64,000 bases of DNA, taken from IMG/VR virus record IMGVR_UViG_3300035670_000149, positions 1 to 64,000 of that record. One strand, 5' to 3'. Under the pieces are notes generated by a model. It saw only the letters and a list, made by a program, of their open reading frames with translations, ran no database searches and had not been told where the DNA came from. Positions 9,513-38,084 of this stretch are shown here, in pieces. This stretch comes from a virus. The first letter of the stretch is position 1. Every line of letters begins with the position of its first letter. The translations under genes were made by a program, and so were the position numbers.

Positions 9513-9983
9513 TCAAATAGTCATCAAGTCAGCACCACATGCTTGGAACAACATATAAAACTGCCACAAAACTTCCACTTCAAATTCATGGAATGTTAGA
9601 TTTTCTTTTGTAGAATCTAATCTTTGACAACTATTTTTATCTACAACGACGGTAGGAACTGTTTCATGTTTTTCTGGTGCAAACAAATACGTCTTACAAT
9701 TAACATATGCTAAACTATTTGCAATCGGAGAATCATTCCTTGTGCTGATTCCAAGAATCAAATCTGCATGTTTAGCAGCATATTCAATCCACGGAAGATG
9801 CCATGGTTGATCTTTAGATAGTGCAGAAAGATGAACAGCATCTGGAGCAAAACAGAATTTACCAAGATACCTATTCATATCACTTGCAACATGTTGGGCA
9901 ATAGCAAGATTTCCGCCATTTCCAATAATAGCAATACTGTTTGATTGGTTGACCAGTTCAATTAGATCTAAAGAAATCGTCAC
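9513..9983 (-). CDS. SIS-domain sugar isomerase (GmhA-like)
   Basis: 156 residues. IAIIGNGGNLAIAQHVASDM (residues 17-36) is the phosphosugar-binding loop of SIS domains, and the following segment KFCFAPDAVHLSALS resembles GmhA (sedoheptulose-7-phosphate isomerase), the first step to ADP/GDP-heptose. Compared with GmhA (about 190 residues) it is short, and one active-site half looks reduced. It overlaps the HAD gene by 26 bp and is the last gene of a five-gene sugar cassette. Likely converts a phosphosugar for surface glycan synthesis; substrate inferred. Confidence 0.7.
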   Translation of the reverse strand: MTISLDLIELVNQSNSIAIIGNGGNLAIAQHVASDMNRYLGKFCFAPDAVHLSALSKDQPWHLPWIEYAAKHADLILGISTRNDSPIANSLAYVNCKTYLFAPEKHETVPTVVVDKNSCQRLDSTKENLTFHEFEVEVLWQFYMLFQACGADLMTI

Positions 9984-10284
9984 TGTTTACTCCTTTATCG
10001 TCAATGTAAATGTCGCCAGAATATTTTCCAAGAATGAGTTTAGTAAACTTACATCCCCAAGTTTCTAGTTGATTATATGTGTAATTATACCACTTTTGAT
10101 GAGCATTGTGAATAGATCCATCATATTCTCCCATTCCACGAGCAGTGTAGTAGATAATTTCATGTCCTTCATCAAAGAGTTGATTTATCTTCTCAATGCG
10201 ATCATAATAAACTTTACCAGTTCCAAATCCTGGATTGTTTACATGTTCACAGATTGTTCCATCTATGTCTACGATGTATTTCAT
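9958..10284 (-). CDS. HAD-family phosphatase
   Basis: 108 residues. MKYIVDIDGTIC contains the nucleophile motif DxDGT; YYTARGMGE supplies the motif II Thr, and the segment GDIYIDDKG near the end carries the acidic motif. This is the compact form found in capsule and LPS gene clusters. In this cassette it could remove phosphate from a heptose or Kdo-8-phosphate-type intermediate (inference from neighbours). It overlaps kdsB-like by 38 bp. Confidence 0.75.
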   Translation of the reverse strand: MKYIVDIDGTICEHVNNPGFGTGKVYYDRIEKINQLFDEGHEIIYYTARGMGEYDGSIHNAHQKWYNYTYNQLETWGCKFTKLILGKYSGDIYIDDKGVNSDDFFRSN

Positions 10285-10972
10285 CTTTTACCACTTCAAT
10301 GTCAGATAAACGATCAACGGCATGTGTTCTTGTTTGAATATTAAATGGTCTTACTGGTACTTTTCCAATAAAACCTAACGTATCAAGACTAGCACAGTCT
10401 TCTACCATACGCAAGTCATACTGTCCGAATTTTGAAATCGTATCGTAGTCATAAACGTAAAGACCAGATATGCCAAAAATGTGACGATTGATCATCCATT
10501 CTTTTTCTGGATTCCTCGATAACCAAATGATACAATTGTTGTTTACAACTGCCTTTACACAATCTTCATCCGCAAGATCATTTTCATCAATATTGTAAAT
10601 TGCCTGAACCATCTGATGTTTATGATCAACTGCATATTGAATCATTGCGTCCATGGCAGTCACATTCATGCATGGTTCATCACCTTGAAGATTGACAACA
10701 TAATCTGGACGACGATCTAACATGTGAGAGCACAGATAAACTCTATGCGTACATGTAGGACATTTTTCAGTAATGATACACTTGTGCCCATAATTTGTCA
10801 CAACATCATAGATGTCCTGATCTTCAGTTGCAACAACAATCTCATCAATTTTAATACTTTCTTTTGCACGATCAATTACATGCAAAATCATCTCTTTTCC
10901 TTTGATTTTGTATAATGGTTTGCCAGGAAATCTTGATGATCCTAATCGAGCAGGAATAATACAAGTAATCAT
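10247..10972 (-). CDS. kdsB: CMP-Kdo synthetase-like cytidylyltransferase
   Basis: 241 residues. The N-terminus ITCIIPARLGSSRFPGKPL is the nucleotide-binding signature of 3-deoxy-manno-octulosonate cytidylyltransferases, and YVVNLQGDEPCMN (near residue 90) is the second conserved motif (NxQGDEP). The length matches KdsB. The enzyme activates Kdo or a related keto-sugar as the CMP-sugar for transfer. ATGA overlap with the upstream transferase-like gene. The closely related CMP-sugar synthetases for other acidic sugars cannot be excluded. Confidence 0.8.
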   Translation of the reverse strand: MITCIIPARLGSSRFPGKPLYKIKGKEMILHVIDRAKESIKIDEIVVATEDQDIYDVVTNYGHKCIITEKCPTCTHRVYLCSHMLDRRPDYVVNLQGDEPCMNVTAMDAMIQYAVDHKHQMVQAIYNIDENDLADEDCVKAVVNNNCIIWLSRNPEKEWMINRHIFGISGLYVYDYDTISKFGQYDLRMVEDCASLDTLGFIGKVPVRPFNIQTRTHAVDRLSDIEVVKDEIHRRHRWNNL

Positions 10973-11967
10973 AGTTCAGGAATCAGTTTAGCAACTTCAG
11001 GATGATACTCCATTTTATCATACATTTTACACTTCATCTCAAGTTTTTCTATCGCTTTGTCTTTATCATATAACGAAAGAGGAACTGCTTCAGGAATGAT
11101 TCTACCTGTAGAGTTTCCATAGAACCAATCATCCCACATTCTACCATGATTCTCAGTCAAACGATTTGAATAAAAGTTTAACATGTAAAGAGATTTGAGT
11201 AATTGTTCTGGTGTTTCCCTTTTGTGTGGACACAGAAACAATTTGACCATGCTGGATATAATTTCACGATCATCTACATTCTGTATCCAAAGATCTTCAA
11301 ACTTCTTGTGAATTAGTTCTAGATTGGCATAGGTATCAATCGTACTCTCTTTGTCAAAGCGATAGAAAATATCACCAGGATCGTAATAACGAACGATTGC
11401 ACCACTATAATATGCATAAAGAGTTGCTGATGTAAAGAGTGGGAAATAAAATAACTTAAACTTTCCCATTGCCACAGCAAGACCTAATTGCCATTCTTCA
11501 ATACCTGGATCATTGAAAATGCTGATAATTTTCACATTTTCCAATCCTTCATATGCAAAGGCACGATACCATTCATCCTTTTGTTCTGCAGGTGCCATTG
11601 CATAAACTGGTTCATTAGAAGTTGATACGATTTGTCTAAAGTTTTCGTAGACAACCTTATTGAAATCAATTCCAGTTGCAATATCTCCCTTTGGAAGAAA
11701 GATGCAGATACCTTTTCTTTCTTGCCTTGGAATCAGTGCATCAGCATAAACAAAAGGACTCGCACCTAGGTGAACATAATATGATGGTTTTGTGAGTTTG
11801 TTTTGTAAATACTCACTCCAGATGTAAACACTGGAGCACATGAAGTCAGCATAGAACTCTTTACGTCCCATGGTTTCTGTCTGCACCCCAGGAATAAAAT
11901 TATAATCTAAAAACTGGTCAGTTCCTGCCCAATAGTTGAGAAGTTCTTTAGTTCCAAAACGACTCAT
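10969..11967 (-). CDS. Transferase-like protein of the sugar cassette (GT-B-like?)
   Basis: 332 residues. Conserved features shared with the protein at 22310-23278: WAGT/WTGV near the N-terminus, then an ASPFVYADAL / VSPFCYGLEL segment, then a hydrophobic strand with ICIFLPKGD / IVFLPRSD, and later FYFPLFTSATLYAYYSGA followed by VRYYDPG. The last segment resembles the donor-binding part of GT-B glycosyltransferases (Ser/Thr, then helix, then small residue, then V-x-Y). Coupled to kdsB-like by an ATGA overlap, so it may use the CMP-sugar. Enzyme class is inference. Confidence 0.5.
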   Translation of the reverse strand: MSRFGTKELLNYWAGTDQFLDYNFIPGVQTETMGRKEFYADFMCSSVYIWSEYLQNKLTKPSYYVHLGASPFVYADALIPRQERKGICIFLPKGDIATGIDFNKVVYENFRQIVSTSNEPVYAMAPAEQKDEWYRAFAYEGLENVKIISIFNDPGIEEWQLGLAVAMGKFKLFYFPLFTSATLYAYYSGAIVRYYDPGDIFYRFDKESTIDTYANLELIHKKFEDLWIQNVDDREIISSMVKLFLCPHKRETPEQLLKSLYMLNFYSNRLTENHGRMWDDWFYGNSTGRIIPEAVPLSLYDKDKAIEKLEMKCKMYDKMEYHPEVAKLIPEL

Positions 11968-12345: not shown

Positions 12346-12374
12346 ATTATAGATGAGTTTTTGAGTTATGTCAA
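12346..12374 (-). promoter_or_regulatory. Perfect consensus promoter of the sugar cassette
   Basis: TTGACA (12369-12374), 17 bp, TATAAT (12346-12351) on the minus strand. The -35 box overlaps the last codons of the upstream adhesin gene. It gives the cassette (12323 to 9513) a host-polymerase promoter, separate from the late promoters of the fibre genes. Confidence 0.8.
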
Positions 12375-13243
12375 ATTATGGTATAAGTTTCTACTGCAGA
12401 TCCTGGTGGTGCAGATGTGTCATCAACAACTACTACGTTATTTACAACAATAAGAACTTTTCCAGTAGTGCCTGGGGCGTTTGGATATGGGCTAGGATTA
12501 TTATATGTTCCACTTCCACCAGAGGGACTACCTGGAGCTCCATTTCCTGACAGATTTGTAGTTGATGTAATTGTAAAAGAACCAAATCCAGGTTGAGTTA
12601 CTGTTCCGGAATTAACATATCCTGATCCTCCACCTCCTCCTGCATCATATCCACCATTAGTGCCACCACCGCCACCACCATACCAACCACCGCCGCCGCC
12701 GCCGCCTTCGGTGGGGGATGCGCCATTCCCACCTAACCACTGACCTCCTGAACTTGCGCCTGATCCGCCGCCACCGCCGGCATTTTGAGTGGCACCACCA
12801 CCCCGTAAACCAAAATCTGGAATCTCTACTGCAGTTGTACCAGAAGGTCCACCCCCAGCACCGCCTTGTGCGCTATCATATCCATCATTTCCGCCACCGC
12901 CGGCACCGCCAGCAACTCCCAATACATAAGTTCTACCTGTAGTGCCATCTACTGGACCAACAAAAGCTGCAGAAAACCCGCCAGCTGCGCGAGACCCGCC
13001 TCCTCCAGTATAAAAATTTCTTGCTCCATCTCTAGATCCAACAATATATCCAATAACTGTTCCTGGATTAGCAGTTCCTTGTATTTGTACCCATCCGCCG
13101 CCGCCTGGCGCGCCGCCCCTGCCCGGTGTACCAAACCCACCCCAAAGATAGATTTGTATATTTTTTGGTCCGGAGGCCCCCCTTAATTTTTTTCTATTAC
13201 CAAATCCAAAAGATTGAGAAATTCTTGATACAATAGGTGCCAT
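12371..13243 (-). CDS. Glycine-rich tail adhesin
   Basis: 290 residues. From residue 35 onward there are long runs of Gly with small and aromatic residues (GGGGGGGWYGGGGGG and others), then a C-terminal beta region ending VETYTII. This is the composition of polyglycine-sandwich adhesins such as gp38-type receptor-binding proteins. It follows the fibre gene at 13243 with 1 bp overlap, like the gp37-gp38 pair in T-even phages. Likely the receptor-binding tip. Confidence 0.75.
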   Translation of the reverse strand: MAPIVSRISQSFGFGNRKKLRGASGPKNIQIYLWGGFGTPGRGGAPGGGGWVQIQGTANPGTVIGYIVGSRDGARNFYTGGGGSRAAGGFSAAFVGPVDGTTGRTYVLGVAGGAGGGGNDGYDSAQGGAGGGPSGTTAVEIPDFGLRGGGATQNAGGGGGSGASSGGQWLGGNGASPTEGGGGGGGWYGGGGGGTNGGYDAGGGGGSGYVNSGTVTQPGFGSFTITSTTNLSGNGAPGSPSGGSGTYNNPSPYPNAPGTTGKVLIVVNNVVVVDDTSAPPGSAVETYTII

Positions 13244-14262
13244 CAGAAAAATCCGCCAGAAACAATTCCAAATACTTCGTAATTAGCAGCAGAACTTGCT
13301 GAACCAATTGTATTTACTCCAACAAAATTATAAACTGTGTATCCATTGGTGGTTGTGACACCTGAAGTTGCCTCGTTTCTAGAACCTCCAGCAAACTTCA
13401 CTGCTCTTTCTACACCATTTAGTCTAACAAACGTATGACAACTGCGACCAGTTCCTGTTGTTCTTAGAATTGCAGAAACAGAAATTGAATGATTGTCAAA
13501 AGAACTATCAGTTGGAATTCCTTCAACTCTAATTACAACATCAGCAGAAGGATTATCAAAATAGATAATATTTGCAGTGGATGTATATGTGCAGACTCCA
13601 ACACTTGATGATGCTGATACTCTAACCATCTTTTCTGCGACGTTAGAGAATCTAGATTCATTCGGAATTACAACGTTAGTGATTGTAGTAACACCGGTAA
13701 TTGTAGTATTACTTAGATTTGCTTGACCACTAATTGTAGTAATTCCACCAGTAACTTGGAGACCGTTTCTAGCAGTAATCAATCCAATTGAGTCTACATT
13801 AGTTACATCATCATAAGTCAAAGTACCACCAACAGTTACATTTCCAGCAAATGTTGCTGCAACACCAGAAATATTTCCACTGAACTGTGTTGCAGTGACA
13901 ACTCCCAATGCATTGATATGTCTTGCACTTAGATCTGCAGTCAAAGAAAGATTAGAACCCGTAGCACCTGGTCCTAATCCAGTGGCACTACCAGCATTAG
14001 TTGCAGTGCCATTAAAAGTATTTGCGGTGATGATGCCAATACCAGTTCCATCAATAGAGACAGTTCCAAAATTACCTTTAGATGCCGTAATTACGCCAGA
14101 GTTTCCATCAATAGAGACAGTTCCAAAATTACCTTTAGATGCCGTAATTACGCCAGAGTTTCCATCTAGGGTTATACCAATTCCAATATCTATTGGTTGT
14201 GATGGAGATGTTCCTAGCCCAGATCCAACTGCTGCTAGATTTGTAGCTTTTGTTATTGCCAT
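13243..14262 (-). CDS. Tail-fibre-like structural protein
   Basis: 339 residues from the ATG at 14262 (MAITKATNLAAVGSGLGTSP); an ATG three codons upstream also exists. Contains two identical 19-residue units (GNFGTVSIDGNSGVITASK) and GVSTF-like repeats. The C-terminal part (residues 210-340) is a non-repetitive domain. Late promoter at 14282. The following adhesin gene overlaps by 1 bp, so the two are probably one fibre and its tip. Confidence 0.7.
   Translation of the reverse strand: MAITKATNLAAVGSGLGTSPSQPIDIGIGITLDGNSGVITASKGNFGTVSIDGNSGVITASKGNFGTVSIDGTGIGIITANTFNGTATNAGSATGLGPGATGSNLSLTADLSARHINALGVVTATQFSGNISGVAATFAGNVTVGGTLTYDDVTNVDSIGLITARNGLQVTGGITTISGQANLSNTTITGVTTITNVVIPNESRFSNVAEKMVRVSASSSVGVCTYTSTANIIYFDNPSADVVIRVEGIPTDSSFDNHSISVSAILRTTGTGRSCHTFVRLNGVERAVKFAGGSRNEATSGVTTTNGYTVYNFVGVNTIGSASSAANYEVFGIVSGGFF
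14047..14160. repeat. 57-bp in-frame tandem duplication
   Basis: Two copies of a 57-bp block, which I read as identical base for base, encode 19-residue units of the fibre protein. Confidence 0.85.
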
Positions 14263-14281
14263 TACCGACAAATTTTTTAGT

Positions 14282-14289
14282 TATTTATC
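14282..14289 (-). promoter_or_regulatory. T4-type late promoter
   Basis: Minus-strand GATAAATA followed by ACTAAAAA; 20 bp upstream of the fibre gene start at 14262. Overlaps the stop of the last oxygenase gene. Confidence 0.7.
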
Positions 14290-14911
14290 AGAGCAATAAT
14301 TCGCTTATTCCTACCATTCCTTTTGGAAATATATTGAAAGATAATGAATAACGATCTTTGTTTGATAGATTTGGTTTCACAGAATGAGAAAGACCAGAAC
14401 TGAATAATAATAGTGTTCCAGTTACAGCAGGAACAGTATAATGTGGGGTGTTATATGCATTGAATTTTGTATGTGTAAATGGGAGGGAAATTTGATGATA
14501 AGCATGGGAACATCCCATTGCACTTGCATTATGAAATACAATATCGCCGGAATTTTCTGGAGCATCAATGTAGAGAACTCCACTAAAAATAGATCCTGTA
14601 TGATTATGCATTACACAATGATGTCCATAGGAATGTCTCAATGCCCATGATCTTCCATAATCAAAAACAAGATCATCATCAATCAGATACACATCTTTAG
14701 ATAATTTATCAACGTTACCACAAATATGTTGTTTTATATTTGAAAATATTTTATGGTCTAAGATTGATTTGTTTTTTGACCAATCGCCATTACCAATATG
14801 AACTGGTTCATACTCAAGATTCTTCACATATTCAACTACTTCATTAGTAATGAGATGCTGAATATGATCAATCACCAACGGAATTGCAAAAATAGGTATA
14901 ATTTCTGTCAT
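14288..14911 (-). CDS. 2OG-Fe(II) oxygenase-like protein (TIGR02466 type)
   Basis: 207 residues. The metal-site region is VMHNHTGSIFSGVLYID (near residue 100), the second histidine is in SSGLSHSVKPN (near 172) and the 2OG-binding arginine in DRYSLSFNIFPK. This is the small oxygenase type common in marine phages and resembles the protein at 14908. It is the last of five oxygenase genes in a row. Substrate unknown; fibre protein residues or a host glycan are inferred from context. Confidence 0.7.
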   Translation of the reverse strand: MTEIIPIFAIPLVIDHIQHLITNEVVEYVKNLEYEPVHIGNGDWSKNKSILDHKIFSNIKQHICGNVDKLSKDVYLIDDDLVFDYGRSWALRHSYGHHCVMHNHTGSIFSGVLYIDAPENSGDIVFHNASAMGCSHAYHQISLPFTHTKFNAYNTPHYTVPAVTGTLLLFSSGLSHSVKPNLSNKDRYSLSFNIFPKGMVGISELLL

Positions 14912-15495
14912 GAGAACGATATATTGAAGGCTACTGAAATTCTCTCTTGATCTGATTTATTTGAGGTGACCGAATGATTTAAGTGGGATGGAAACAATAT
15001 CATTAACCCTTCTTGAGGTTCAACATAGAACCAATCATAAGCATTAGTTGATTTTTTAAACTCTTCACTATAGTTTGATAGTGTTTTGTACTGTTGAAAA
15101 CTGCAAGGAGATTCAAAAACTATATTGCCACTATTTTTTGGTACTTTTAACCATAAAACCCCAGATAAGTCACAACCTGGATGATTATGAGAATGATTAT
15201 AATTTCCCGTATCATTACAATTTAACCACATACTATTCATTTTAGCAGTGGAAAAATTATTGAAAATTTGTTTATTCGCAAAGAAACTTTCTAATTGAGT
15301 ATCTATCAAACTTTTGATTAGATTGTCTTCTTTTTGATTGTAATCATCTGTTGATTGCCACCCGCCAGCATTTGATTTTTTTACTCCAGATGATTTTGAT
15401 TTTTCTTGATGCACATATGATATTAAGTCATTTTTATGGTAAGAAAAATTTTCTAAAAAGAAAGTATGAATAATGCAAGGAAAAATTGTAATCAT
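14908..15495 (-). CDS. 2OG-Fe(II) oxygenase-like protein (TIGR02466 type)
   Basis: 195 residues. Motifs HSHNHPGCDLSGVLWLKVP, then SHLNHSVTSN and QERISVAFNISF. Relative positions agree with the preceding protein, so the two are paralogues. Its stop overlaps the next start (ATGA), and its own start overlaps the upstream gene by 1 bp, so the five oxygenases are translationally coupled. Confidence 0.7.
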   Translation of the reverse strand: MITIFPCIIHTFFLENFSYHKNDLISYVHQEKSKSSGVKKSNAGGWQSTDDYNQKEDNLIKSLIDTQLESFFANKQIFNNFSTAKMNSMWLNCNDTGNYNHSHNHPGCDLSGVLWLKVPKNSGNIVFESPCSFQQYKTLSNYSEEFKKSTNAYDWFYVEPQEGLMILFPSHLNHSVTSNKSDQERISVAFNISFS

Positions 15496-16061
15496 TATTT
15501 TTGAAGTGTAAAGACACAGACAAATCTATGTTTTCCTACAGACGGAAAAACATTCGTATGAAAATACTTACCATCAAACAGTATAACCTTTCCTGCCTTT
15601 GGAGTTATTTGTTTTAGTATATCTAAACTTTGACCTTGATCAATTGATATGAAGGTAGGACCTGTATCATAATACTTGTCAAATATAATCGTTTCTCCAT
15701 CACAATCATTCAAGTACATCAAAACAACATAATGATCATCTGTATAATCTATATGTGGTTCCGAAAATTGAGTATCATGATGAATGGTCGAATTTATACA
15801 TGCTCGTGTTACATTGGAAAAGGAAATATTATGTTTATAGCAAAAGTTTACCACAATACTATAGAAAAAGTCAAAATATACGGATTTTCTTACTTCACCA
15901 AGTTCTACTCTTGGCATCAAAGTATGACTAAAATATGGAAATTTTTCTGTAGTATATGAGTGCCGATAATAAAACGGCAAATCTGCATTTTTTAAGACAT
16001 GATAATCAATTTGCTCCAAAATTTTAGATGGTATTCCACATTCGTCTTCAATAAAAATCAT
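15495..16061 (-). CDS. 2OG-Fe(II) oxygenase
   Basis: 188 residues. HxD in EPHIDYTDDHYVVLMYLND, the distal His in DGKYFHTNVFPS and the 2OG arginine in GKHRFVCVFTL. YLND-x-x-x-GET after the HxD strand is the pattern of prolyl-hydroxylase-like oxygenases. It sits in the middle of the five-gene oxygenase block. Confidence 0.75.
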   Translation of the reverse strand: MIFIEDECGIPSKILEQIDYHVLKNADLPFYYRHSYTTEKFPYFSHTLMPRVELGEVRKSVYFDFFYSIVVNFCYKHNISFSNVTRACINSTIHHDTQFSEPHIDYTDDHYVVLMYLNDCDGETIIFDKYYDTGPTFISIDQGQSLDILKQITPKAGKVILFDGKYFHTNVFPSVGKHRFVCVFTLQK

Positions 16062-16567
16062 GGGTTATATTGAAATGCTATTGAAAGTCTACCAAAATCA
16101 TTCATCAAAGGAGTTGGAGGAATGATTTTGTGTTGAATTCTTCCATTAAAAACAACTGCTCTACCTGGTTTTGGTCTTACAATTCCTCCTCTACGAAACT
16201 TAGTGCCTGACCCCCAATACCATTTCCAAACGGGATTTACATAAAAAATTACAGTGCTTCCCCATTCGTCGGTATGATATTCAAAATGTTCAAATGGTTT
16301 GATGCAGTTTATAGAAACCTTATAAAGATTGTTTGTTTCTGGAATGTTTTTTTCTTTAATTTTATTGTGCAAATAACTTACCAAGGGGTCATCATGCATA
16401 ATTTCCCCAATCATAGGTTGTCTTATTGTTCTACCAAAGGACATTCTTTTTACTTGCTGTCCTCTATAATCATCAATTTTATTCCAAATAAAATCATCAG
16501 TATTCAAAAAACTATAGATGTCTCTGACTTCATCTTGCTTCAAAAAATTATCGTAAATTGTAATCAT
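16058..16567 (-). CDS. 2OG-Fe(II) oxygenase
   Basis: 169 residues from the ATG at 16567 (MITIYDNFLKQDEV). The motif FEYHTDEWGSTVIFYVN carries HxD, NGRIQHKIIPPTP the distal His and FGRLSIAFQYNP the arginine. The unusual insert VWKWYWGSGTKFRRGG lies between the strands. ATGA overlaps on both sides. Confidence 0.75.
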   Translation of the reverse strand: MITIYDNFLKQDEVRDIYSFLNTDDFIWNKIDDYRGQQVKRMSFGRTIRQPMIGEIMHDDPLVSYLHNKIKEKNIPETNNLYKVSINCIKPFEHFEYHTDEWGSTVIFYVNPVWKWYWGSGTKFRRGGIVRPKPGRAVVFNGRIQHKIIPPTPLMNDFGRLSIAFQYNP

Positions 16568-17109
16568 GATACAAAACTTAACCAACTGGAAATTATATAT
16601 TTGGTCTCACTCGACGAAGTAAGACCTTTGTGAGCATGTGTCCACTCAGAAGGCCAAATAACAAGTTTTCCTTGTTTTGGTTTTATGAGTTTTTTTTGAT
16701 GATAGAATAGGGTTTCTCCGCCATCGTGAACATCATTCAAATACAGCATCCACACCAGTATTCTAGCACAGGTTTTAATCGTGCTTCTTTCGCAATGCAA
16801 CTCATGATATGCTTGTCCTGGATAATACCGTTTGAGTGATATATTTTCTATTTGACCAAAACTGCTTAGGTTTTTTAGAAATGGATATGTTTTTTCATAT
16901 TCATGCAATTCAAGTTGCAAGGTTTCTAATAAACAATCTAGTTCAGGATGATTTGGAGAAAATAATACTTCAGTACAATCCTTCTTATTTTTATTCAAAC
17001 CTCCAATAGTTTCTCCATCTCGTTGAAAATTTTTAAGTTCTTCAAATAATGATATCAGTTTTTCACAATTTTCTCGTGAGAGTGCATTATCTTTTTCAAA
17101 AATAAACAT
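16564..17109 (-). CDS. 2OG-Fe(II) oxygenase, prolyl 4-hydroxylase-like
   Basis: 181 residues. LHCERSTIKTCARILVWMLY carries HxE as the metal site, followed by YLNDVHDGGETLF, the distal His in EWTHAHKGLTS, and the lysine-containing C-terminal strand KYIISSWLSF. The combination matches prolyl 4-hydroxylase-type oxygenases more closely than the other paralogues here; these use Lys rather than Arg to bind 2-oxoglutarate. First of the five oxygenases, starting 1 bp into the end of a glycine-rich adhesin gene. Confidence 0.75.
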   Translation of the reverse strand: MFIFEKDNALSRENCEKLISLFEELKNFQRDGETIGGLNKNKKDCTEVLFSPNHPELDCLLETLQLELHEYEKTYPFLKNLSSFGQIENISLKRYYPGQAYHELHCERSTIKTCARILVWMLYLNDVHDGGETLFYHQKKLIKPKQGKLVIWPSEWTHAHKGLTSSSETKYIISSWLSFVS

Positions 17110-17972
17110 TATGTGCTTAAATAAAGTCTTCCTAACGTTCCAGCATTTCCAGCAGTTCCTCTCACAGGATCGGATGGATTTCCAACAGTTCCTCTAGATC
17201 CGCCAAGATTTGATGGAGATGTTACTGTGGGATGCACATAAGAACTTCCGCCACCGCCACCTGTTGCAGCAAGACAACAAATATCTGGACCACCTTGACC
17301 TCCCCAATATCCAGAACCCCCGCCAGATCCTCCACCATAACCAGCACCAGGTCCTCCTTGTAAAGGCCAAACAGTATAACCAGGACCACCACCGTTAGTT
17401 GATTGATAACCACTACCAGGTTGCCCCGATGTTCCACCTCCAGCTCCTGCTACCTGCCCTCTGCCACCATCATCAGAATCTGTTGCGCCTCCGCCACCGG
17501 CAACTACCCTCGCATTGGCCTGCGAAACTGATGAAGCAAAAACTCCATACGCGCCGCCACCAAGAGAAGGTCCAACAACCCCAAAATTTGAATTCATAAT
17601 TAAAGTATCTCCCGTGGTTCCTGGCAAATACCCACCAGCAAACCCTCCAGCTCCAGATGGATATCCTTGATTTGGTTGTCCACCACCACCCCAAGCCCTA
17701 ATTCTAAGATTATATGGTCCCTGAGCAACAAAAGTATGTTGAACTGTTGGTTGAAAACTCAGAGCCCCGTTAGTTACAAAACTCCATGTGCCTGGACCAG
17801 AAATTGTTGCTGGAACTGTAAAAGTATCTGAAATTGCGGAAGAAAAAACTTGTCTCCAGGTCCCAGCGTCTTTAATATGAACTGTAGAGGAACTTCTCCA
17901 AACTCCACCATCTTTTACATGAATACCAGTTGCGGATCTCCAGGTTCCTCCGTCTTTAATTTGCGTTGCCAT
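17109..17972 (-). CDS. Glycine-rich adhesin with KDGGTWR repeats
   Basis: 287 residues. The N-terminus has three 13-15-residue repeats of the type IKDGGTWRSATGIHV, a motif found in phage tail fibres; then a beta domain, then a Gly-rich region (GGGGGSSYVHPTVTSPSN and others) typical of adhesin tips. It lies directly upstream of five oxygenase genes with 1 bp overlap. Likely virion receptor-binding protein, possibly a substrate of the oxygenases (inference). Confidence 0.75.
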   Translation of the reverse strand: MATQIKDGGTWRSATGIHVKDGGVWRSSSTVHIKDAGTWRQVFSSAISDTFTVPATISGPGTWSFVTNGALSFQPTVQHTFVAQGPYNLRIRAWGGGGQPNQGYPSGAGGFAGGYLPGTTGDTLIMNSNFGVVGPSLGGGAYGVFASSVSQANARVVAGGGGATDSDDGGRGQVAGAGGGTSGQPGSGYQSTNGGGPGYTVWPLQGGPGAGYGGGSGGGSGYWGGQGGPDICCLAATGGGGGSSYVHPTVTSPSNLGGSRGTVGNPSDPVRGTAGNAGTLGRLYLST

Positions 17973-17978: not shown

Positions 17979-18677
17979 TCAAACCAAATAAGGACCAGAT
18001 GGTTGTGGTGGATAAAAATCCCTTGCAGAAATCATTGATCGAGTATAAGGTGATACATCACCAATAATTTCTGGCAAATCTCTAAGTTGTTGTCTATACT
18101 GCTTAATTTCAGTAGTGAGTAATTTTCCAGTTTCAGTTGCCTGAATAACAAGATAATCTGTATTTTTTAGAAGAAGATCTCTTGTTCCTCTCAAAATGTT
18201 CCATTTTTCAGTATTCAATTCTTCATCAGTAAATCTTGTTATTTCATATACTTTAGTGATGGTTAACTTCTTATGATCAAGAATCCATTGATCATCTGGT
18301 TTTGTTGCCTTGATTTTAATAGTATCTTCATCACCAACATCTGGTTCAACTACTTTATAAGTTTTCCAAGTAATTGAAATTGTTTTATCATCATCACTAA
18401 TTGCCCACTCTTTAATAGGATTTTTGATATAAAATTCTTTATCATTTGCTGTTGGCACATCATTAGCATTGGTGATTCTTCTCCAACTCTCATTATAATA
18501 CAAATAGTCATCATCAACAAATGCACCGTTGTCATAAATCCAACGAGGATGCATTCTTTCTGTATTATAATTAGTTACATATTTTTGTCTTTCTTGACTC
18601 TGATTCCATTCATCAGTTAGTTCTGGAAGAACATCAGGAAACCAATACTTTTTGTCTGTTTCTTCTACCCAACTCAT
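17979..18677 (-). CDS. Virion-associated protein with tail-assembly-chaperone-like C-terminus
   Basis: 232 residues. Residues about 155-210 (WNILRGTRDLLLKNTDYLVI, then KQYRQQLRDLPE) match the phage tail assembly chaperone domain (W..LR..RD.LL..TD, then YRQ.LRDLP) often found at the end of fibre assembly proteins. The N-terminal part is not recognised. Sits between a fibre and an adhesin gene, so a fibre-assembly chaperone is likely. Confidence 0.65.
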   Translation of the reverse strand: MSWVEETDKKYWFPDVLPELTDEWNQSQERQKYVTNYNTERMHPRWIYDNGAFVDDDYLYYNESWRRITNANDVPTANDKEFYIKNPIKEWAISDDDKTISITWKTYKVVEPDVGDEDTIKIKATKPDDQWILDHKKLTITKVYEITRFTDEELNTEKWNILRGTRDLLLKNTDYLVIQATETGKLLTTEIKQYRQQLRDLPEIIGDVSPYTRSMISARDFYPPQPSGPYLV

Positions 18678-18688: not shown

Positions 18689-19912
18689 TTAGTAGATGTA
18701 GTATATATCTCCGTCAGATCCACCAGTAGGAGATCCTCCAGATTGTACAGTTCTATTTCCTATCGCATTTTTCCCAATAGCAGCACCAATTGATCCAACA
18801 GTCATAATACCAGCGATTGACAAATGAGTACCACTAATTGTGACTCCAGTTCCGACCTGAATCTGAGAAGAACCGCCTCTCATTGTAATTGCACTTCCAA
18901 CCTGAACAACATCACTATTACCATTCAAAGTTATTGAACTTCTGCCAATGGTCAGAATTCCAATAACTCTAGCATTTCCATCAACCAATAACGCAGTTGT
19001 ACCAATACCAATGGTTACCGTACCCATACCTGCTGAGGTATTGAAAGTAGATACCCCAGACACCGTAATCGTATTTGAAGTTACGCTTGCTAGTGTTGAA
19101 AATCCAGTAACTCTGAAGTGTGTTGAATTGGACTGAGTAAAAGTTGTAATACCAGATACATTTAGATTTCCACTCAATGTAGACATACCAGAAACTACAA
19201 GAGTGCTGGTACTTACATTATCAGTAGCAGCAATTCCAGTAAGTGCAGATCCATCTCCACTGAAAGAATTTGCTGTGATGATACCAGTAACATTTAGATT
19301 TGTTCCAGTTACTCCTACACCAAGAAATCCGCTAACAGATGTGGAAACTCCGGCAGTTGATGCATATGTTGCAATGCCTGCACTAACCGCGACAGAAGCA
19401 ATGCCCGCACGAACTGCTTCAGTTGCAATACCTGCTCTAGTCGCTTCGGTGGACATTCCAGCACGAACTGCTTCAGTTGCAATACCTGCTCTAGTCGCTT
19501 CGGTGGACATTCCAGCACGAACTGCTTCAGTTGCAATACCAGCTTTAATGGTAGATTGAACAGTGGCATTTAATAATCCACCAACTGAGAGATCACCAGA
19601 GACTTGGAAATTTCCTCTTACGACTTGATCACCATCGCCATTCAGAACATCAGCAACTACAAAATTTTCATGTATGACAAACTCAATAACATCATTTTGA
19701 TTTGCTGGAGTAATTAGAGTTATTGTTGCCCCATCTAATGCAACAAAATCTCTTTGTCCAACTAACTTCACACCATTACGATATACATCAATGGCATTGA
19801 TATTATAACCACCACTAGGCAAAAAATCTACCTGTCCAGCAGTGGCTAACACTGATAATCTTATATTATTTTGGGTTCCAGTAAAACTAGATTGTTGTCC
19901 TAGGTATCCCAT
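18689..19912 (-). CDS. Tail-fibre-like structural protein
   Basis: 407 residues. N-terminal domain (MGYLGQQSSFTGTQNNIRLS) resembles that of the protein at 26257 (FGYVGNQPDSTPV..., DVFLNGIKLV versus DVYRNGVKLVG), likely a shared capsid/tail attachment domain. Residues 120-190 are 9-residue repeats (TEAVRAGMS/TEATRAGIA), then GVSTF repeats. Has a late promoter at 19929 and heads the adhesin-oxygenase transcript. Confidence 0.75.
   Translation of the reverse strand: MGYLGQQSSFTGTQNNIRLSVLATAGQVDFLPSGGYNINAIDVYRNGVKLVGQRDFVALDGATITLITPANQNDVIEFVIHENFVVADVLNGDGDQVVRGNFQVSGDLSVGGLLNATVQSTIKAGIATEAVRAGMSTEATRAGIATEAVRAGMSTEATRAGIATEAVRAGIASVAVSAGIATYASTAGVSTSVSGFLGVGVTGTNLNVTGIITANSFSGDGSALTGIAATDNVSTSTLVVSGMSTLSGNLNVSGITTFTQSNSTHFRVTGFSTLASVTSNTITVSGVSTFNTSAGMGTVTIGIGTTALLVDGNARVIGILTIGRSSITLNGNSDVVQVGSAITMRGGSSQIQVGTGVTISGTHLSIAGIMTVGSIGAAIGKNAIGNRTVQSGGSPTGGSDGDIYYIY
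19407..19554. repeat. 54-bp in-frame tandem repeat
   Basis: Copies start at 19407, 19461 and 19515 and encode 18-residue units (two 9-residue half-repeats). They are almost identical at DNA level. Confidence 0.85.
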
Positions 19913-20259: not shown

Positions 20260-20943
20260 TTACCTCGCAGCATCTTTTGCACAGTGAGCACGTTGTCCAT
20301 CAGCAAGAACATAATGGAAGAAAATTTGATGATAGTACGTATCATCATTTCTCCTCTTCCATCTACCTATTATATTGCCTTTATGTCTAGATGGCAAGGG
20401 ATCTCTCCAGTGTGGTCGTTCACACCCTTTGTACAACAAACCATCTCCTGGTTCCAAACAAAGGGATCTCTCTTCTCCACCAACAGTTTTGATTTTGAAT
20501 GGCCAGCATTCTTCTAAATTAGTGCTAACATGAACACTTACAGAAATTTCGCAAGCATCACGATCGGCATGTCTTTTTAGTTCTTGCCCAGCAAAATAAA
20601 ATCTATCATAGTAATACGTATTATACAACTTACGTCCAATTATTTCCTCTAATTTCAAACGAATACCAGAATGAACTTCTCTGTATTGGGGATGAGTATA
20701 AGTTGCAATAGAACCTTCTACCTGTTCTTCTAATGGAATATGCTGATATTGATCTAAATTTTTTCCCCAGAAGTTTATTTGCCCTCTGATCTCAGGAACT
20801 GACCTATGCAAATCAATAGAATTCCAAAGATTTTTAATAACTAAGTATCCATCATTTTCAAATTGATCATTTCGAGTCCACGCAGTTCCTGTGTTTTGTC
20901 GTTCTTGCCATAGCAATTGCTCTTCTGTCATTTTTTCTGCCAT
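20260..20943 (-). CDS. 2OG-Fe(II) oxygenase-like protein
   Basis: 227 residues. LKRHADRDACEISVSVHV supplies the HxD, CERPHWRDPLPS the distal His after EPGDGLLY, and HQIFFHYVLADG the C-terminal strand. This is a second subtype often found in cyanophages, different from the TIGR02466 pair. It lies 8 bp downstream of another oxygenase gene. Substrate unknown. Confidence 0.7.
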   Translation of the reverse strand: MAEKMTEEQLLWQERQNTGTAWTRNDQFENDGYLVIKNLWNSIDLHRSVPEIRGQINFWGKNLDQYQHIPLEEQVEGSIATYTHPQYREVHSGIRLKLEEIIGRKLYNTYYYDRFYFAGQELKRHADRDACEISVSVHVSTNLEECWPFKIKTVGGEERSLCLEPGDGLLYKGCERPHWRDPLPSRHKGNIIGRWKRRNDDTYYHQIFFHYVLADGQRAHCAKDAAR

Positions 20944-20951: not shown

Positions 20952-21572
20952 TCACTTCCAGCGGGGTCCAACCGTCCATCCAACAAGGGATTTGCGGGTT
21001 CCTTTTGTAACTTTTAGAACTCTATGTTGTGTGCGAGAATCAAATAGAATTACAGTGCCACGCTTACGGGGAGCAATATAACTATTCCCTGCTTCATCAA
21101 GCAGTTGTAAGTTTCCACCTTCATAATCATCAGGGTCACTCAACTGAACTACAAATGAAAGTTTACGAACCATTTCAATTTTTTCATTAAAATAATCCTG
21201 TGCCAAACCTTCAGCACGATTTCCAACTGCTACTGGTTTGTATTGAGTCGAAAGTCCTGCGTCATTATGCCAACCATAGAACTGTCCCTCAGTATATTTT
21301 GTAAACTGCATTGATTCTCCATCAATACAGTGAAGGTCATAAAGGAAGTTCTCACGATTTGCTCTTTGAATATAATGCCACACAAATCCACCAACCCAAT
21401 GAGTGGTAGGAATCCAGGCGTTTTGTGAGTTTCTTTTTTCTTTATTGAGAGCATCTCCATGAAGTTTGGAGTCTGCCATTTGCTCATCAAACTTTTCTGT
21501 AAGATCTCGTTCGATGATGTGTACAACATCATCTGGTAGATCACTAAAATACCAAACTGATTGAAATGCCAT
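20952..21572 (-). CDS. 2OG-Fe(II) oxygenase, PKHD/PiuC-like
   Basis: 206 residues. TEGQFYGWHNDAG gives HxD, then KLSFVVQLSDPDDYEGGNLQ is the conserved strand pair, RTQHRVLKVTKGTRKSLVGW gives His and Arg. The order and spacing fit the PKHD-type hydroxylases (YbiX/PiuC). First of two oxygenase genes in this block. A protein hydroxylase role is inferred. Confidence 0.8.
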   Translation of the reverse strand: MAFQSVWYFSDLPDDVVHIIERDLTEKFDEQMADSKLHGDALNKEKRNSQNAWIPTTHWVGGFVWHYIQRANRENFLYDLHCIDGESMQFTKYTEGQFYGWHNDAGLSTQYKPVAVGNRAEGLAQDYFNEKIEMVRKLSFVVQLSDPDDYEGGNLQLLDEAGNSYIAPRKRGTVILFDSRTQHRVLKVTKGTRKSLVGWTVGPRWK

Positions 21573-21587: not shown

Positions 21588-22313
21588 TTAAGTTTGCTTC
21601 CACAGTGAAGAAAATGGGCACTTACCGTTTTCAGATCTTTTGGTTCTTTCTTTGATCAGATTCCATGAATGAAAAGGGTGCCATTTTTTTAGTTCATTAT
21701 TTTGAATGACTTTTTTTGATATTTCCTCTGACACCTCTTTTTTGACCAACTTTATCATTATATCATGTTGATTCTTTTTTGTAAATCTAACATTGCATAA
21801 TGGCGATCCTCTGTCAAGAAATATTTCTTCATCTTTCTTTTTTAGAAGAACTCCAATATTTATTGGTCTCTCCCAACAAGATACTGGAAAAGTTCCAGAT
21901 ATTAAATCCAACCCTTTAGAAGTTAATGATGAATGGGGAATTTGCTCAATCCAAAGATCTTCTTCTTCAGTCCAAAACAAAAAGGATAAAAGCATTTGAA
22001 ATTCTGGAAATTCCCCATTATTCCAATCTGAATGAATTTGAAAATAACGATCAAAATTACTCTGCGAATTAAAATCTGCATTCAAAAAATTAGAATTTGA
22101 ATTGTACTTTATTTTCAGAGGAAATTGTTGATATAATGTAAAGGTATTTTTGTAATATTCTTTCCAACCAGGACATTTAGAATGTTGATATCTAGAATCA
22201 TAATCTGAAGTATACTTTTGAGGTGAAATAAAATAATCTTCAGGAAGACAATTTCTATTTTCTGGATCAAAGGATCCAATAGAATAATCATAAAATACTT
22301 TTACAGTTTTCAT
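21588..22313 (-). CDS. Hypothetical protein (DUF6065-like?)
   Basis: 241 residues, starting MKTVKVFYDYSIGSFDPENR with KCPGWKEYYKNTFTLYQQFP (residues 45-70) and ending HPFHSWNLIKERTKRSENGK. The pattern CPG...KNTF resembles phage proteins of unknown function annotated DUF6065, but I am not sure. ATGA overlap with the transferase-like gene upstream, so it is probably part of the same modification step. Confidence 0.5.
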   Translation of the reverse strand: MKTVKVFYDYSIGSFDPENRNCLPEDYFISPQKYTSDYDSRYQHSKCPGWKEYYKNTFTLYQQFPLKIKYNSNSNFLNADFNSQSNFDRYFQIHSDWNNGEFPEFQMLLSFLFWTEEEDLWIEQIPHSSLTSKGLDLISGTFPVSCWERPINIGVLLKKKDEEIFLDRGSPLCNVRFTKKNQHDIMIKLVKKEVSEEISKKVIQNNELKKWHPFHSWNLIKERTKRSENGKCPFSSLWKQT

Positions 22314-23278
22314 AATTTTTGAAAAAAATCAAATACTTTTTTTGGTGGTTCTACTTCAAACTTTTTGATTTTATTGGAAAGAGATTGATATGCACCATCA
22401 TTCAAAATAAGATCTTCATTGATGACAAAATCGATAGATTCTACTCTTTCGTGCAGTAATCTCAATTTTTTATAAAGATTACTGGGAGTTTCTAATAAAT
22501 CTAAAGAAAGAAACTGATATGTGAGAAATTTTTTTTCATCCGTTAGTAAGTCATCTGAAAAAATTTCTTCCAAATATTTCATACCTTGATTCCATTCTTC
22601 TCCTTTATCACTTGGAGCATAATGTTTATGAACATCTTGTTCTATTAGGTTACTTACTTTTTTATGAATATTTCCCTCATCATAAAATTTTACTTTAGAC
22701 CCACAAAAACCAGCATACACAACTGTGCTGCAAAATATTGGAAAATATAAAGTTTTTGCTTTTTTTATGAGTCTTATTAGTTGATCCCCCCAGGAATCGT
22801 CATGTTGTCTGTGAGATATTTTATAAAGATTTTTTGGTATTGCTGATTTCCAAAAGTCTATATCTGATGGGAAAGAGATGTAATATGTTTTATCATCAAG
22901 AGAAAGATTGCCTAAGGATGTTATTATATCATGCTTTTTCTCTTCTGCCAACTCGGTGCTCCAATCTGATCGTGGCAAAAACACAATATCAACTTTTTCT
23001 TCCTCTTTGTAAGAAACTTTATTAAGTTCAAGACCATAGCAAAATGGACTTACACCAAATATCGCATCGTCTGGTATTTTTTTTATTACTTGGTTTCCCC
23101 AAAAATATTTGGGAGGATTATACATGATATAATCATAATCCCAATTTTGAAAAAAATTTTCTTTTGCTATCCCAGGAGTAATTTCATATTTTAAGGAATG
23201 TGTTACACCAGTCCAATTATCCAAATATAATTTCTGACCGTACGCTGGATGATTGGTAATAAAATTTTGCTTTTTCAT
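22310..23278 (-). CDS. Transferase-like protein, paralogue of the one at 10969
   Basis: 322 residues. Shares with the 332-residue protein: WTGVTHSLKYEITPG, GVSPFCYGLEL, VDIVFLPRSD, and LYFPIFCSTVVYAGFCGSKV then FYDEGN. The paralogue lies beside kdsB-like, hence a sugar- or phosphoryl-transfer role is inferred; a GT-B-like donor site is possible. It is coupled to the gene downstream and follows a conserved virion-associated gene. Confidence 0.5.
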   Translation of the reverse strand: MKKQNFITNHPAYGQKLYLDNWTGVTHSLKYEITPGIAKENFFQNWDYDYIMYNPPKYFWGNQVIKKIPDDAIFGVSPFCYGLELNKVSYKEEEKVDIVFLPRSDWSTELAEEKKHDIITSLGNLSLDDKTYYISFPSDIDFWKSAIPKNLYKISHRQHDDSWGDQLIRLIKKAKTLYFPIFCSTVVYAGFCGSKVKFYDEGNIHKKVSNLIEQDVHKHYAPSDKGEEWNQGMKYLEEIFSDDLLTDEKKFLTYQFLSLDLLETPSNLYKKLRLLHERVESIDFVINEDLILNDGAYQSLSNKIKKFEVEPPKKVFDFFQKL

Positions 23279-23774: not shown

Positions 23775-24821
23775 TCAAAGTTTTGTAATATTCGTTTTCA
23801 CGACAAACCATGCAGCACCATTACTACCTGAGGTATATGATGATCCATTCCCCGGAGTTCCTCCACCACCTGCGGCATAACTACTGGCGGCCGCGCTGGC
23901 AGCACCACCACCAGATCCTCCCGGGGTTCCAGATGGAGAGGCGGCACCAGGAACAAAAGTGCCATAACAATAACCATCAGGTCTTTGAGTTCCTTGACAG
24001 TAAGAAGGACCAGGGGTCCCGCCACCGCCGGCACCACCACCTCCGATTGCTTCAGGAGTCGGTAGCGTAATAGTAAATCCCGAACCTCCTGCGCCACCAC
24101 TACCATTGGCATTCATTCCACCGCCGCCTCCTCCAGTACAACCAACCGGGGTTGCGTTAGATGTTCCTCCACCAGATCCTCCTTGCGATCCTGGTCCAGG
24201 AGATGCATTAAATCCAGCTCCTCCACCACATCCACCAGGTTGACCATTGCCTCCATTAGTACCACCTCTACCACCACCAGTAGCAGTTCTTCCAAAAAAG
24301 GATGTATTGCCACCATTTGCACCAGAACCGCCGCCGCCACCAATGGTTAGTGTTTGAGAATATGAACTAACAAAACCCACAAAACCACCGCTAGCATTTT
24401 TAGAAATTGGTGAGATTGTATTATTTGATTTTATAAAGGAAAATTGTGGAGCAGTTAGATCACTATTTCGCGTGGGAGCTGGTGTTATTGGACCATTTCC
24501 AACAAATCCTCCAGCTCCTCCTCCACCATGAGCACCGGACCCACCTCCTGCGCTAATAAAATATTCAATAGAATTGGATCTAGAACTAACTCTAGTAGAA
24601 TTACCAATTACATCGTCTGCATGTCTTGAGACATATCCAGTTCCATTGGAAACTTTCCAATTTACAGTAGTATTAGACGTTGCCTTAAAATATGAATTGC
24701 CACCAGAAGACCCCAAAGAAGATGAAGGGGAGTCAATTCTAAAATCAAACACTCCACCAGTTTCAAATCTTCCACTCAATCTATTCTGAGATCTGAGTCT
24801 TCTATATTTTTTATTTGACAT
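23775..24821 (-). CDS. Glycine-rich tail adhesin
   Basis: 348 residues. Basic N-terminus (MSNKKYRRLRSQNRLSGRFE), then a beta domain, then glycine-rich blocks (GGGGGSGANGG, GGGAGGGGTPG, and others) to residue 330 and a C-terminus ending VVKTNITKL. Composition as in polyglycine-sandwich receptor-binding proteins. Upstream of a transferase-like and two oxygenase genes. Confidence 0.7.
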   Translation of the reverse strand: MSNKKYRRLRSQNRLSGRFETGGVFDFRIDSPSSSLGSSGGNSYFKATSNTTVNWKVSNGTGYVSRHADDVIGNSTRVSSRSNSIEYFISAGGGSGAHGGGGAGGFVGNGPITPAPTRNSDLTAPQFSFIKSNNTISPISKNASGGFVGFVSSYSQTLTIGGGGGSGANGGNTSFFGRTATGGGRGGTNGGNGQPGGCGGGAGFNASPGPGSQGGSGGGTSNATPVGCTGGGGGGMNANGSGGAGGSGFTITLPTPEAIGGGGAGGGGTPGPSYCQGTQRPDGYCYGTFVPGAASPSGTPGGSGGGAASAAASSYAAGGGGTPGNGSSYTSGSNGAAWFVVKTNITKL

Positions 24822-25265: not shown

Positions 25266-25273
25266 TATTTATA
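25266..25273 (-). promoter_or_regulatory. T4-type late promoter
   Basis: Minus-strand TATAAATA followed by ACCAAAGA; 36 bp upstream of the gene starting at 25230. Confidence 0.6.
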
Positions 25274-29888: not shown

Positions 29889-30752
29889 CTAATTTGGTTT
29901 TGTTACAATAAACCATGACTGTGCAACTCCAATATCTCCCTTAGAAATATAAAATCCAGTATACACAGTTTCATCAAAAGTTGAAGCTGAAGTCATTCGA
30001 ACTTGAATGGTACTGCCATATTGTGCCGACAAACTTTTACCAGTTCTTCCATCAACAACTAAAGATGCTGTAGGTCCATCAACAGACACAGTAAATCCTG
30101 TACATGATCTATCAACATCGGTCAAACTAAATGATTGACTATAGACAGTATTGAGATTTGCATTACGAATACCAACTAAATTATAGTTTGCATTTAGAGG
30201 ATTACAATTTGGAATAACAGGTGCAGGTGCAGGTGCTGGAGCAGGTGCTGGTGCTGGAGCAGGTGCTGGTGCAGGTGCTGGTGCTGGAGCAGGTGCTGGT
30301 GCTGGTGCGGGTGCGGGTGGCGCAGGAGTAGGAGGAACATCCCCATCTGGTTGTTGAGTAATTGTTATCTGACCCTTTACCTTTAGAATAACAGTATTAG
30401 AAGCCAAAGGAGAGTTTGATGCCCCTGGTTGAAAAGTTTGTATGCCGACTCTTGTTGGGTCTGGATAAAATATTGAATACTGAATTAAATTTTTACCATT
30501 ATAAACAGTATCTGTCATATTTGTCAGCGTTAGTTGTGTACCGATACCAACAACAGATCCATTTATCCTCCATTCATAACCTAAAGTTCCGATTCCTGCA
30601 ACAAGATAGTTGACAGTAGACACTCCTGTAAATGTAGCAGATCCACCATAAGAAATTGTTCCAGGATCATTGATCTGAGTTACATACGTCAGAAATGGTG
30701 GGTTTATTCTGACGGGTGTAGATACTTTTCTATGAAATGCTAATGGACTCAT
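29889..30752 (-). CDS. Ig-like fibre protein with an Ala-Pro linker
   Basis: 287 residues. Residues 25-125 form an Ig-like domain (LGYEWRINGSVVGIGTQLTL). Residues about 140-180 are an Ala-Pro repeat, about 16 dipeptides in a row. The rest is a second domain with a CTGF-containing strand (DRSCTGFTVSVDGPTASLVV). Alternating Ala-Pro stretches are stiff linkers, and in plants they are sites of proline hydroxylation and glycosylation. It overlaps the 2000-residue protein gene by 4 bp. Confidence 0.7.
   Translation of the reverse strand: MSPLAFHRKVSTPVRINPPFLTYVTQINDPGTISYGGSATFTGVSTVNYLVAGIGTLGYEWRINGSVVGIGTQLTLTNMTDTVYNGKNLIQYSIFYPDPTRVGIQTFQPGASNSPLASNTVILKVKGQITITQQPDGDVPPTPAPPAPAPAPAPAPAPAPAPAPAPAPAPAPAPAPAPVIPNCNPLNANYNLVGIRNANLNTVYSQSFSLTDVDRSCTGFTVSVDGPTASLVVDGRTGKSLSAQYGSTIQVRMTSASTFDETVYTGFYISKGDIGVAQSWFIVTKPN
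30219..30325. repeat. Hexanucleotide repeat coding for Ala-Pro
   Basis: About 17 copies of a (GGTGCN)-type hexanucleotide on the plus strand, with variants in third positions. Prone to slippage and length change; in-frame changes would alter only linker length. Confidence 0.8.
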
Positions 30753-37382: not shown

Positions 37383-37396
37383 CTAAGTATTTGTGC

Positions 37397-37834
37397 TTAT
37401 TTTCTAACAAACCAAAAAGACAAAGTATATCTTGTTCCACTGGTTATTTCTTTTACACAATGCTTGATGGTAGAATTTGAAAATATAACAAGTTTTCCCA
37501 CTTTTGGATCACATGTATAATTTTGAAAAATCGTTTGTCCACCTCGATAATCATCATTTAGATACAATATAGCAGAAAAAAGATCTCCTTCATCATAATG
37601 CCAATCCATTTTAGAACTTTTTGGCCACTGTACAATTTGACAAAGAGATAATTTCACATCACTGTTCAATGACATGCATATTTTTTCTATTTTATCAGTA
37701 ACTTGGGATATTTTTTCAATATTAAGTGGATATGTATCTCGATACTGAAATACTCTATCAGTATTTTGTAAGTAAAATTGAATTATTTTATCACAATCTG
37801 CTTTACTTAGAAAATTTTTATCAATATAAATCAT
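37397..37834 (-). CDS. 2OG-Fe(II) oxygenase
   Basis: 145 residues, the shortest here. DWHYDEGDLFSAILYLND gives HxD, NSTIKHCVKEITSGTRYTLS gives distal His and arginine. It precedes the Mom-like gene by 15 bp and follows the tRNA genes. Candidate DNA- or protein-modifying oxygenase. ILYLNDDYRGGQTIF is the conserved strand. Confidence 0.75.
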   Translation of the reverse strand: MIYIDKNFLSKADCDKIIQFYLQNTDRVFQYRDTYPLNIEKISQVTDKIEKICMSLNSDVKLSLCQIVQWPKSSKMDWHYDEGDLFSAILYLNDDYRGGQTIFQNYTCDPKVGKLVIFSNSTIKHCVKEITSGTRYTLSFWFVRK

Positions 37835-37852
37835 GATAATTCCAAAAAATAA

Positions 37853-37924: not shown

Positions 37925-37927
37925 AAT

Positions 37928-38000: not shown

Positions 38001-38004
38001 TTAG

Positions 38005-38076: not shown

Positions 38077-38084
38077 TTGATGAA

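Follow-up and report, generated by a model that had tools for sequence, protein, structure and literature searches.

Tandem 2-oxoglutarate oxygenase genes beside tail-fiber chaperone and glycine-rich genes in a predicted cyanophage: possible modifiers of attachment proteins

Why would a phage keep five consecutive 2-oxoglutarate (2OG)-Fe(II) oxygenase genes among the genes for its tail? The question is raised by a 72.6-kb IMG/VR virus record, IMGVR_UViG_3300035670_000149, whose first 64,000 nucleotides (hereafter, the window) were analyzed here. A gp5-like baseplate protein with best matches in cyanomyoviruses (~30% identity) and an open reading frame (ORF) at 62144 that reads as psbA-like mark the virus, by predicted gene content, as a T4-like cyanomyovirus; megablast against GenBank phages returned no DNA-level relatives of the window. 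The steady position of such oxygenase genes beside tail-fiber helper and glycine-rich (Gly-rich) tip genes suggests that some of the enzymes decorate the attachment proteins of the virus.

The five genes, g1 to g5, are consecutive minus-strand ORFs at 14288-17109. g1 (14288-14911; PF13759 8.7e-18, TIGR02466 2.6e-20, PHROG_81 3.5e-37) and g2 (14908-15495; PF13759 1.6e-24, TIGR02466 1.9e-29, PHROG_81 2.5e-41) are TIGR02466/PF13759-type oxygenases with an HxH...H...R site, HNH in g1 and HSH in g2. g3 (15495-16061) is of the PHROG_274 type with HID...H...R (PHROG_274 5e-28; PF13640 2.8e-4, under cut-off), and g4 (16058-16567; PHROG_274 3e-23) combines HTD...H...R with a prolyl-4-hydroxylase (P4H)/PHD-like fold in an AlphaFold model; its start is an ATG, and an upstream TTG at 16585 would add six residues. 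g5 (16564-17109; PF13640 4.7e-12, PHROG_61 5e-42) is PHROG_61/P4Hc-like with HCE...H...K. Neighbors overlap by 1 or 4 bp at each junction, and the start of g5 overlaps by 1 bp the stop of a Gly-rich tail/adhesin-like gene (17109-17972, minus strand). Such start/stop overlaps look as in an operon headed by the Gly-rich tail protein gene, and we infer co-expression of the block. The overlaps and family matches bear out the first-pass annotation, a reading of the bare sequence that had described five coupled 2OG genes at this place. Random placement within this genome reached a run of five in only 7 of 20,000 trials; the clustering is therefore real, though not new.

The arrangement recurs in diverged relatives. 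The order Gly-rich, g5, g4, g3, g2, g1 is kept in the L011/L012 and L015 records at 59-70% identity; L011 carries an extra 2OG gene directly after its second Gly-rich gene (L011:10377-10940), where the window has none. Upstream of the Gly-rich gene lies a tail-fiber assembly chaperone (17979-18677, minus strand; PF16778 Phage_tail_APC 4.5e-8, above cut-off; PHROG_4912 3.6e-14). A pair of oxygenase genes occupies the same strand further upstream: a PiuC/YbiX-like one with HND...H...R (20952-21572; PF13640 2.8e-15, PHROG_61 1.7e-41) and a PHROG_2954 one with HAD...H (20260-20943; PHROG_2954 7.9e-58; AlphaFold model). An IMG/VR scan for the gene at 20260 found 238 loci, of which 80 were kept and 60 were non-redundant. 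A 2OG gene stood directly upstream of the homologue in 90% of these 60, and a Gly-rich protein was encoded within five genes upstream of the pair in 35 of 41 non-redundant loci and downstream in 18 of 50.

The cluster may be viewed as a tailoring block that a T4-like cyanophage keeps inside its tail-fiber operon. Fiber, assembly chaperone, Gly-rich tip proteins, the five enzymes, and the 20952-20260 pair would be made together, and the enzymes, using Fe(II), O2, and 2OG, would hydroxylate side chains of the proteins with which the phage attaches. Each enzyme would target a different site or protein, and the outcome would be correct fiber folding or binding to a different receptor. We hold tentatively, with somewhat less than even confidence, that hydroxylation of the phage's attachment proteins is the role of some of these enzymes. 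The proposal builds on the genes themselves, their fold and active-site residues, the signs of purifying selection, the overlaps, and the conserved linkage with genes for chaperones and Gly-rich proteins. That the substrate might be a protein is supported by matches of the g4 model to prolyl and lysyl hydroxylases and by a match of the g5-group profile to solved P4Hs (1e-11); a fiber or Gly-rich adhesin as that protein would be a further, inferred step. An earlier remark ties viral P4H to collagen in tail fibers and leaves its use open (PMC9301287). We found no report of such attachment-protein chemistry in phages.

Linkage was tested against rotations of the 2OG positions along each genome. 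Of nine places with a PHROG_4912 chaperone outside the window's lineage, six had a 2OG gene no more than 100 bp away (0.62 expected; 0 of 5000 rotations); this test was chosen after the coordinates had been seen, and one inherited module common to S-RIM44, S-PM2, and S-CAM4 brings its effective n below 9. Gly-rich genes were found within 10 genes of 44 of the 149 2OG genes (17.4 expected; 2 of 2000 rotations). Besides the two limits of the chaperone test, several points weigh against the proposal. Fiber regions are places where unrelated genes commonly gather. Direct adjacency of a 2OG gene to a Gly-rich gene, one gene to either side, occurred in 0 of 149 cases against 2.4 expected. No excess of 2OG genes was seen near the large fiber PHROG_529 at 2-10 kb. 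Many phage 2OG genes adjoin DNA or metabolic genes, as in P-SSM2 (beside uvsY, gp46, and gp45) and S-CAM1 (beside psbA). Finally, Pro-Gly, the collagen P4H target, was seen 1008 times in 125 Gly-rich ORFs against 1024 expected.

A modest excess near PHROG_529 appeared at 20 kb. The rotation tests showed no tight association of 2OG genes as a whole with the large fiber or with directly adjacent Gly-rich genes; some cyanophage 2OG genes do accompany chaperones and Gly-rich tail proteins, whereas many others do not. A collagen-type Pro-Gly substrate, in its simple form, is likewise unsupported, the dipeptide standing at the level expected from composition.

Are the products oxygenases at all? By profile and model, all nine candidates in the window are members of the 2OG-Fe(II) oxygenase superfamily with predicted catalytic activity. 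Besides the five and the 20952-20260 pair, they comprise a minus-strand gene at 37397-37834 (PF13640 8.6e-12, PHROG_2297 1.8e-31), near a large tail-fiber gene (30749-36751), and a PHROG_274-type gene at 57885-58412, also on the minus strand and far from fiber genes (PHROG_274 5.3e-39, PF13640 0.013). A Mom-like DNA modification gene (36780-37382; PF25680 9.7e-20, PHROG_1384) adjoins both the 37397 gene and the large fiber gene. The first-pass annotation had read these four additional loci and the nine as a whole as diverse 2OG oxygenases; Pfam and PHROG matches, the tree described below, and AlphaFold models of g4 and 20260 agree with it. Its HxD/E...H...R/K site stands in seven genes and gives way to HxH in g1 and g2; in 20260, where H125, D127, and H178 are invariant across 39 sequences, the distal R/K is less clear, R180 being invariant but very close to the distal His. 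Conserved residues are H102/H104/H176/R187 in g1, and H103/D105/H168/R179 are invariant in g3.

Searches with hidden Markov models placed g1 and g2 in TIGR02466 (73.1 and 102.9 bits; cut-off 62.5) and PF13759 (65 and 86.7 bits; cut-off 27). The PF13640 cut-off (27 bits) was passed by g5, 20952, and 37397 and missed by g3 (22.2), g4 (21.8), and 57885 (16.9), all of which match PHROG_274 instead. g4 also hit the FlmC-type 2OG model NF052475 of NCBIfam at 4e-12, its 46.5 bits falling far under the 240-bit cut-off; a literature search on FlmC found nothing. The HxH...H...R site shared by g1 and g2 recurs in the solved proteins of their family, 3bvc and 2rg4, which are uncharacterized, and in 25 of 167 2OG proteins compared; HxH is typical of TIGR02466.

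AlphaFold predictions were made for g4 and 20260, judged the weakest of the nine, and both fold as 2OG oxygenases. The g4 model (pLDDT 80, pTM 0.80) matched the P. putida P4H 4j25 in VIA with Z 16.9 and a root-mean-square deviation (rmsd) of 2.5 over 156 residues, and most of the best fold matches listed for it are protein hydroxylases acting on prolyl or lysyl residues, viral enzymes included. Among known enzymes, PBCV-1 vCPH (5c5t; Z 15.3 in VIA), mimivirus L230 (among the Foldseek matches listed), and the bacterial P4Hs 4iw3 and 3itq share the fold and the HxD/E...H...R/K site; they differ in that identity is only 12-20% and the window proteins inspected have no collagen-like Gly-X-Y repeats. 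The 20260 model (pLDDT 92, pTM 0.89) matched a Burkholderia 2OG oxygenase (VIA Z 14.4, rmsd 2.9 over 163 residues). The double-stranded beta-helix is thus predicted directly for g4 and 20260, follows for g1 and g2 from their sequence match to 3bvc and 2rg4, and is assigned to g5, 20952, and 37397 by a joint profile match to solved P4H and PiuC structures; for g3 and 57885 it comes only from PHROG_274 and the tree, and the A2 profile of g3, g4, and 57885 had no match among Protein Data Bank sequences.

The fold matches bear on two other accounts of the substrate. Host proteins of translation or photosynthesis might be hydroxylated during infection, since the closest fold match of g4, the P. putida P4H, was solved with EF-Tu (4iw3/4j25), and a JmjC_2 protein (PF08007 1.3e-16) sits in the 2OG run of Syn9, that domain being known from ribosomal protein hydroxylases. 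We consider this improbable: the genes are placed among tail rather than early genes, and a common fold does not reveal the substrate. A role in DNA repair or base modification, like that of AlkB or TET enzymes, has been proposed for Syn9 2OG genes beside uvsX and uvsY (PMC2984593), and AlkB is among the many matches of 20260, though not the best; the Mom-like gene beside 37397 would also fit. The five genes nevertheless lie in the tail block and not near repair genes, the best g4 matches are prolyl hydroxylases, and the best VIA matches of 20260 are prolyl hydroxylases and small-molecule enzymes; we rate a DNA role as very improbable. No AlkB appeared among the 50 Foldseek matches listed for g4, an absence not taken as exclusion.

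Where did such a run come from, and is it maintained? The tree of 167 2OG proteins, built by a quick method and with 58 of its 164 inner branches drawn open, gives each window gene a lineage of its own, and eight of the nine pair with an orthologue from the L015 record. The nine are therefore not recent tandem duplicates, and tandem duplication as the origin was rejected on this quick tree; the strong sequence differences described in the first-pass annotation are real. Between the window and L015, the ratio of nonsynonymous to synonymous substitutions (dN/dS) is 0.09-0.16 for g1 to g5, with active residues kept. Because dS is near saturation, the ratios point toward purifying selection but do not quantify it. 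Since the genes fall in nine lineages and appear to be under purifying selection, many different substrates are plausible, as first proposed.

Exchange also shapes the block. Between L012 (7368-11786) and the L015 contig (L159), identity is 97% for the chaperone, 98% for g5, 95% for g4, 63% for g3, 91% for g2, and 67% for g1, a gene-by-gene mosaic; single 2OG genes have therefore been exchanged within the block. That fine mosaic, the separate lineages of the five genes, and the occurrence of 2OG genes far from fibers in the large genomes counted would all fit mere passengers of a hypervariable region, which would act on varied small molecules or proteins, whether from host or phage, and owe their location to easy gene gain and exchange. 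Passengers would hardly be expected to show a five-gene order and chaperone-2OG and Gly-rich-2OG-2OG linkages that recur in diverged phages, or apparent purifying selection, and we rate this account as credible but rather unlikely. A link between cyanophage 2OG enzymes and 2OG/NtcA has also been proposed (PMC3037559), and the genes could form a metabolic sink that lowers 2OG and thereby affects NtcA nitrogen signaling. A sink has no need of nine diverse conserved active sites, and hydroxylases without substrate generally turn over little 2OG; we give this idea hardly any credence.

The block that houses these genes is a long run of tail genes on the minus strand. Its upper part reads Gly-rich 23775, 23294, 22310, 21588, the oxygenases 20952 and 20260, and 19928; its lower part continues with fiber 18689, chaperone 17979, Gly-rich 17109, g5 to g1, fiber 13243, Gly-rich 12371, and sugar-nucleotide genes. 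The fiber proteins are encoded at 18689-19912 (PHROG_30742 7.5e-9) and, downstream of g1, at 13243-14271 (PHROG_6942 1.6e-7). A second Gly-rich adhesin-like protein (12371-13243), recognized by composition, has no match in Pfam or PHROG, and a third Gly-rich protein (23775-24821) lies upstream of the 20952-20260 pair; all are on the minus strand. Two further proteins, at 10969-11967 and 22310-23278, are distantly related to each other (~25% identity), stand one beside each oxygenase group, and have no family match in Pfam or PHROG. A three-gene set at 9513-10972, comprising a cytidylyltransferase, an HAD-like phosphatase, and an SIS-like isomerase, looks like a supply of CMP-sugar within the tail block.

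These neighbors would suit the hydroxylation of a sugar or nucleotide sugar destined for the host surface or the fiber. The cytidylyltransferase (10247; CTP_transf_3 5e-32), the HAD-like (9958) and SIS-like (9513) genes, and the paralogous proteins 10969 and 22310 share the block and are kept in relatives, and glycosyl- or fucosyltransferase-like ORFs were read near the end of the record. Nonetheless, the closest folds listed for g4 are protein hydroxylases, and the 2OG runs of Syn9 and S-SM2 have no such sugar genes annotated alongside, so that glycan tailoring seems to us unlikely.

How unusual is the window among cyanophages? The same three PHROG models, run over 14 reference cyanomyoviruses, found 1-23 2OG genes in each genome, with a maximum of 11 in 64 kb; P-SSM2 and S-SSM7 had 23 each. 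S-SCSM1 gave 21 matched places, in agreement with the 24 genes counted by its authors (PMC9602691). By these models the window record carries 11.0 2OG genes per 100 kb, only slightly above S-SSM7 (9.9), S-SCSM1 (9.2), and P-SSM2 (9.1). Exceptional density, as the first-pass annotation had supposed for nine genes in 64 kb, was therefore rejected by these counts. S-SCSM1 resembles the window in its 24 divergent genes, falling into at least 13 clusters with PF13640 and PF13759 types; the accessible text of its paper differs in treating them as auxiliary metabolic and does not discuss a tail-fiber link (PMC9602691).

Equal numbers and similar runs, at comparable places, also exist in other cyanophages, an outcome that the first-pass annotation had itself set as a refutation. 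Syn9 has eight 2OG genes across 37053-43144, within 10 kb, including a strict run of five (gp50-gp54), and its gp45-gp54 region lies a few genes downstream of tail-fiber assembly genes and a pair of tryptophan halogenases. In S-SM2, four consecutive 2OG genes are flanked by tail-fiber genes on both sides, and two of the four are closely related to 20952 and 20260; S-SSM7 has a run of four; Nanhaivirus ms29 has ORFs 213-216 among its listed 2OG genes (PMC10436341). Syn9, S-SM2, S-SSM7, and S-RIM44 thus share with the window divergent 2OG runs near tail-fiber or tail-fiber assembly genes, but outside this virus the exact five-gene set is found only in L011/L012/L015. The tryptophan halogenases beside the runs of Syn9 and S-RIM44 are absent from the window; in those phages a tandem pair lies between the tail-fiber assembly genes and the 2OG run (L031:5966-9071 and L020:6740-9851, respectively) and may belong to one tailoring block with that run. 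The JmjC_2 protein within the Syn9 run is gp49 (L031:12598-13308), probably, on its domain match, a second class of 2OG-dependent enzyme. Marine T4-like phages might carry an exchangeable kit of several 2OG hydroxylases, which in Syn9 would also include the JmjC protein and two flavin halogenases, and use it to modify receptor-binding tail proteins, a generalization that we regard as possible though doubtful.

Earlier papers already describe this 2OG gene family and how abundant it is in cyanophages (PMC3037559, PMC9146016, PMC9602691), and the runs can be seen in genomes on deposit; what is new is the reading that ties them to possible fiber modification. No paper tying the runs to tail-fiber chaperones or Gly-rich adhesins was found in the open-access literature, a weak negative, as subscription papers fell mostly outside the search. 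Cyanophage 2OG oxygenases have been counted for more than a decade while roles in DNA repair, nitrogen signaling, or "auxiliary metabolism" were assigned by guesswork. The linkage points a subset toward tail-fiber assembly, an assignment within reach of standard virion mass spectrometry. If modification of attachment proteins were confirmed, host recognition would depend in part on enzymatic changes that cannot be read from the genome sequence by itself, and several "auxiliary metabolic gene" labels would prove mistaken.

One T4-type late-promoter motif, TATAAATA, occurs at 25266-25273 on the minus strand, 36 bp ahead of the 24850 start, and L012 has one ~40 bp ahead of the orthologue of 24850; the motif count is not above chance, and a promoter reading is only suggestive. 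Library names also need attention. PHROG_274 is labeled "DNA endonuclease V," yet its members fall inside the 2OG tree with HxD...H...R kept, and PHROG_2954 is labeled "ferrochelatase." These names and "minor coat protein" stand on members of PHROG_274, PHROG_2954, and PHROG_1644, e.g., Syn9 gp51-gp54 (L031:13899-16145), and the PHROG and RefSeq labels on these 2OG or 2OG-like proteins are probably wrong. In S-SCSM1 (NC_070962), a single ORF at 216908-218269 joins a PHROG_2954 domain to a PHROG_61 2OG domain and supports PHROG_2954 as a partner 2OG enzyme.

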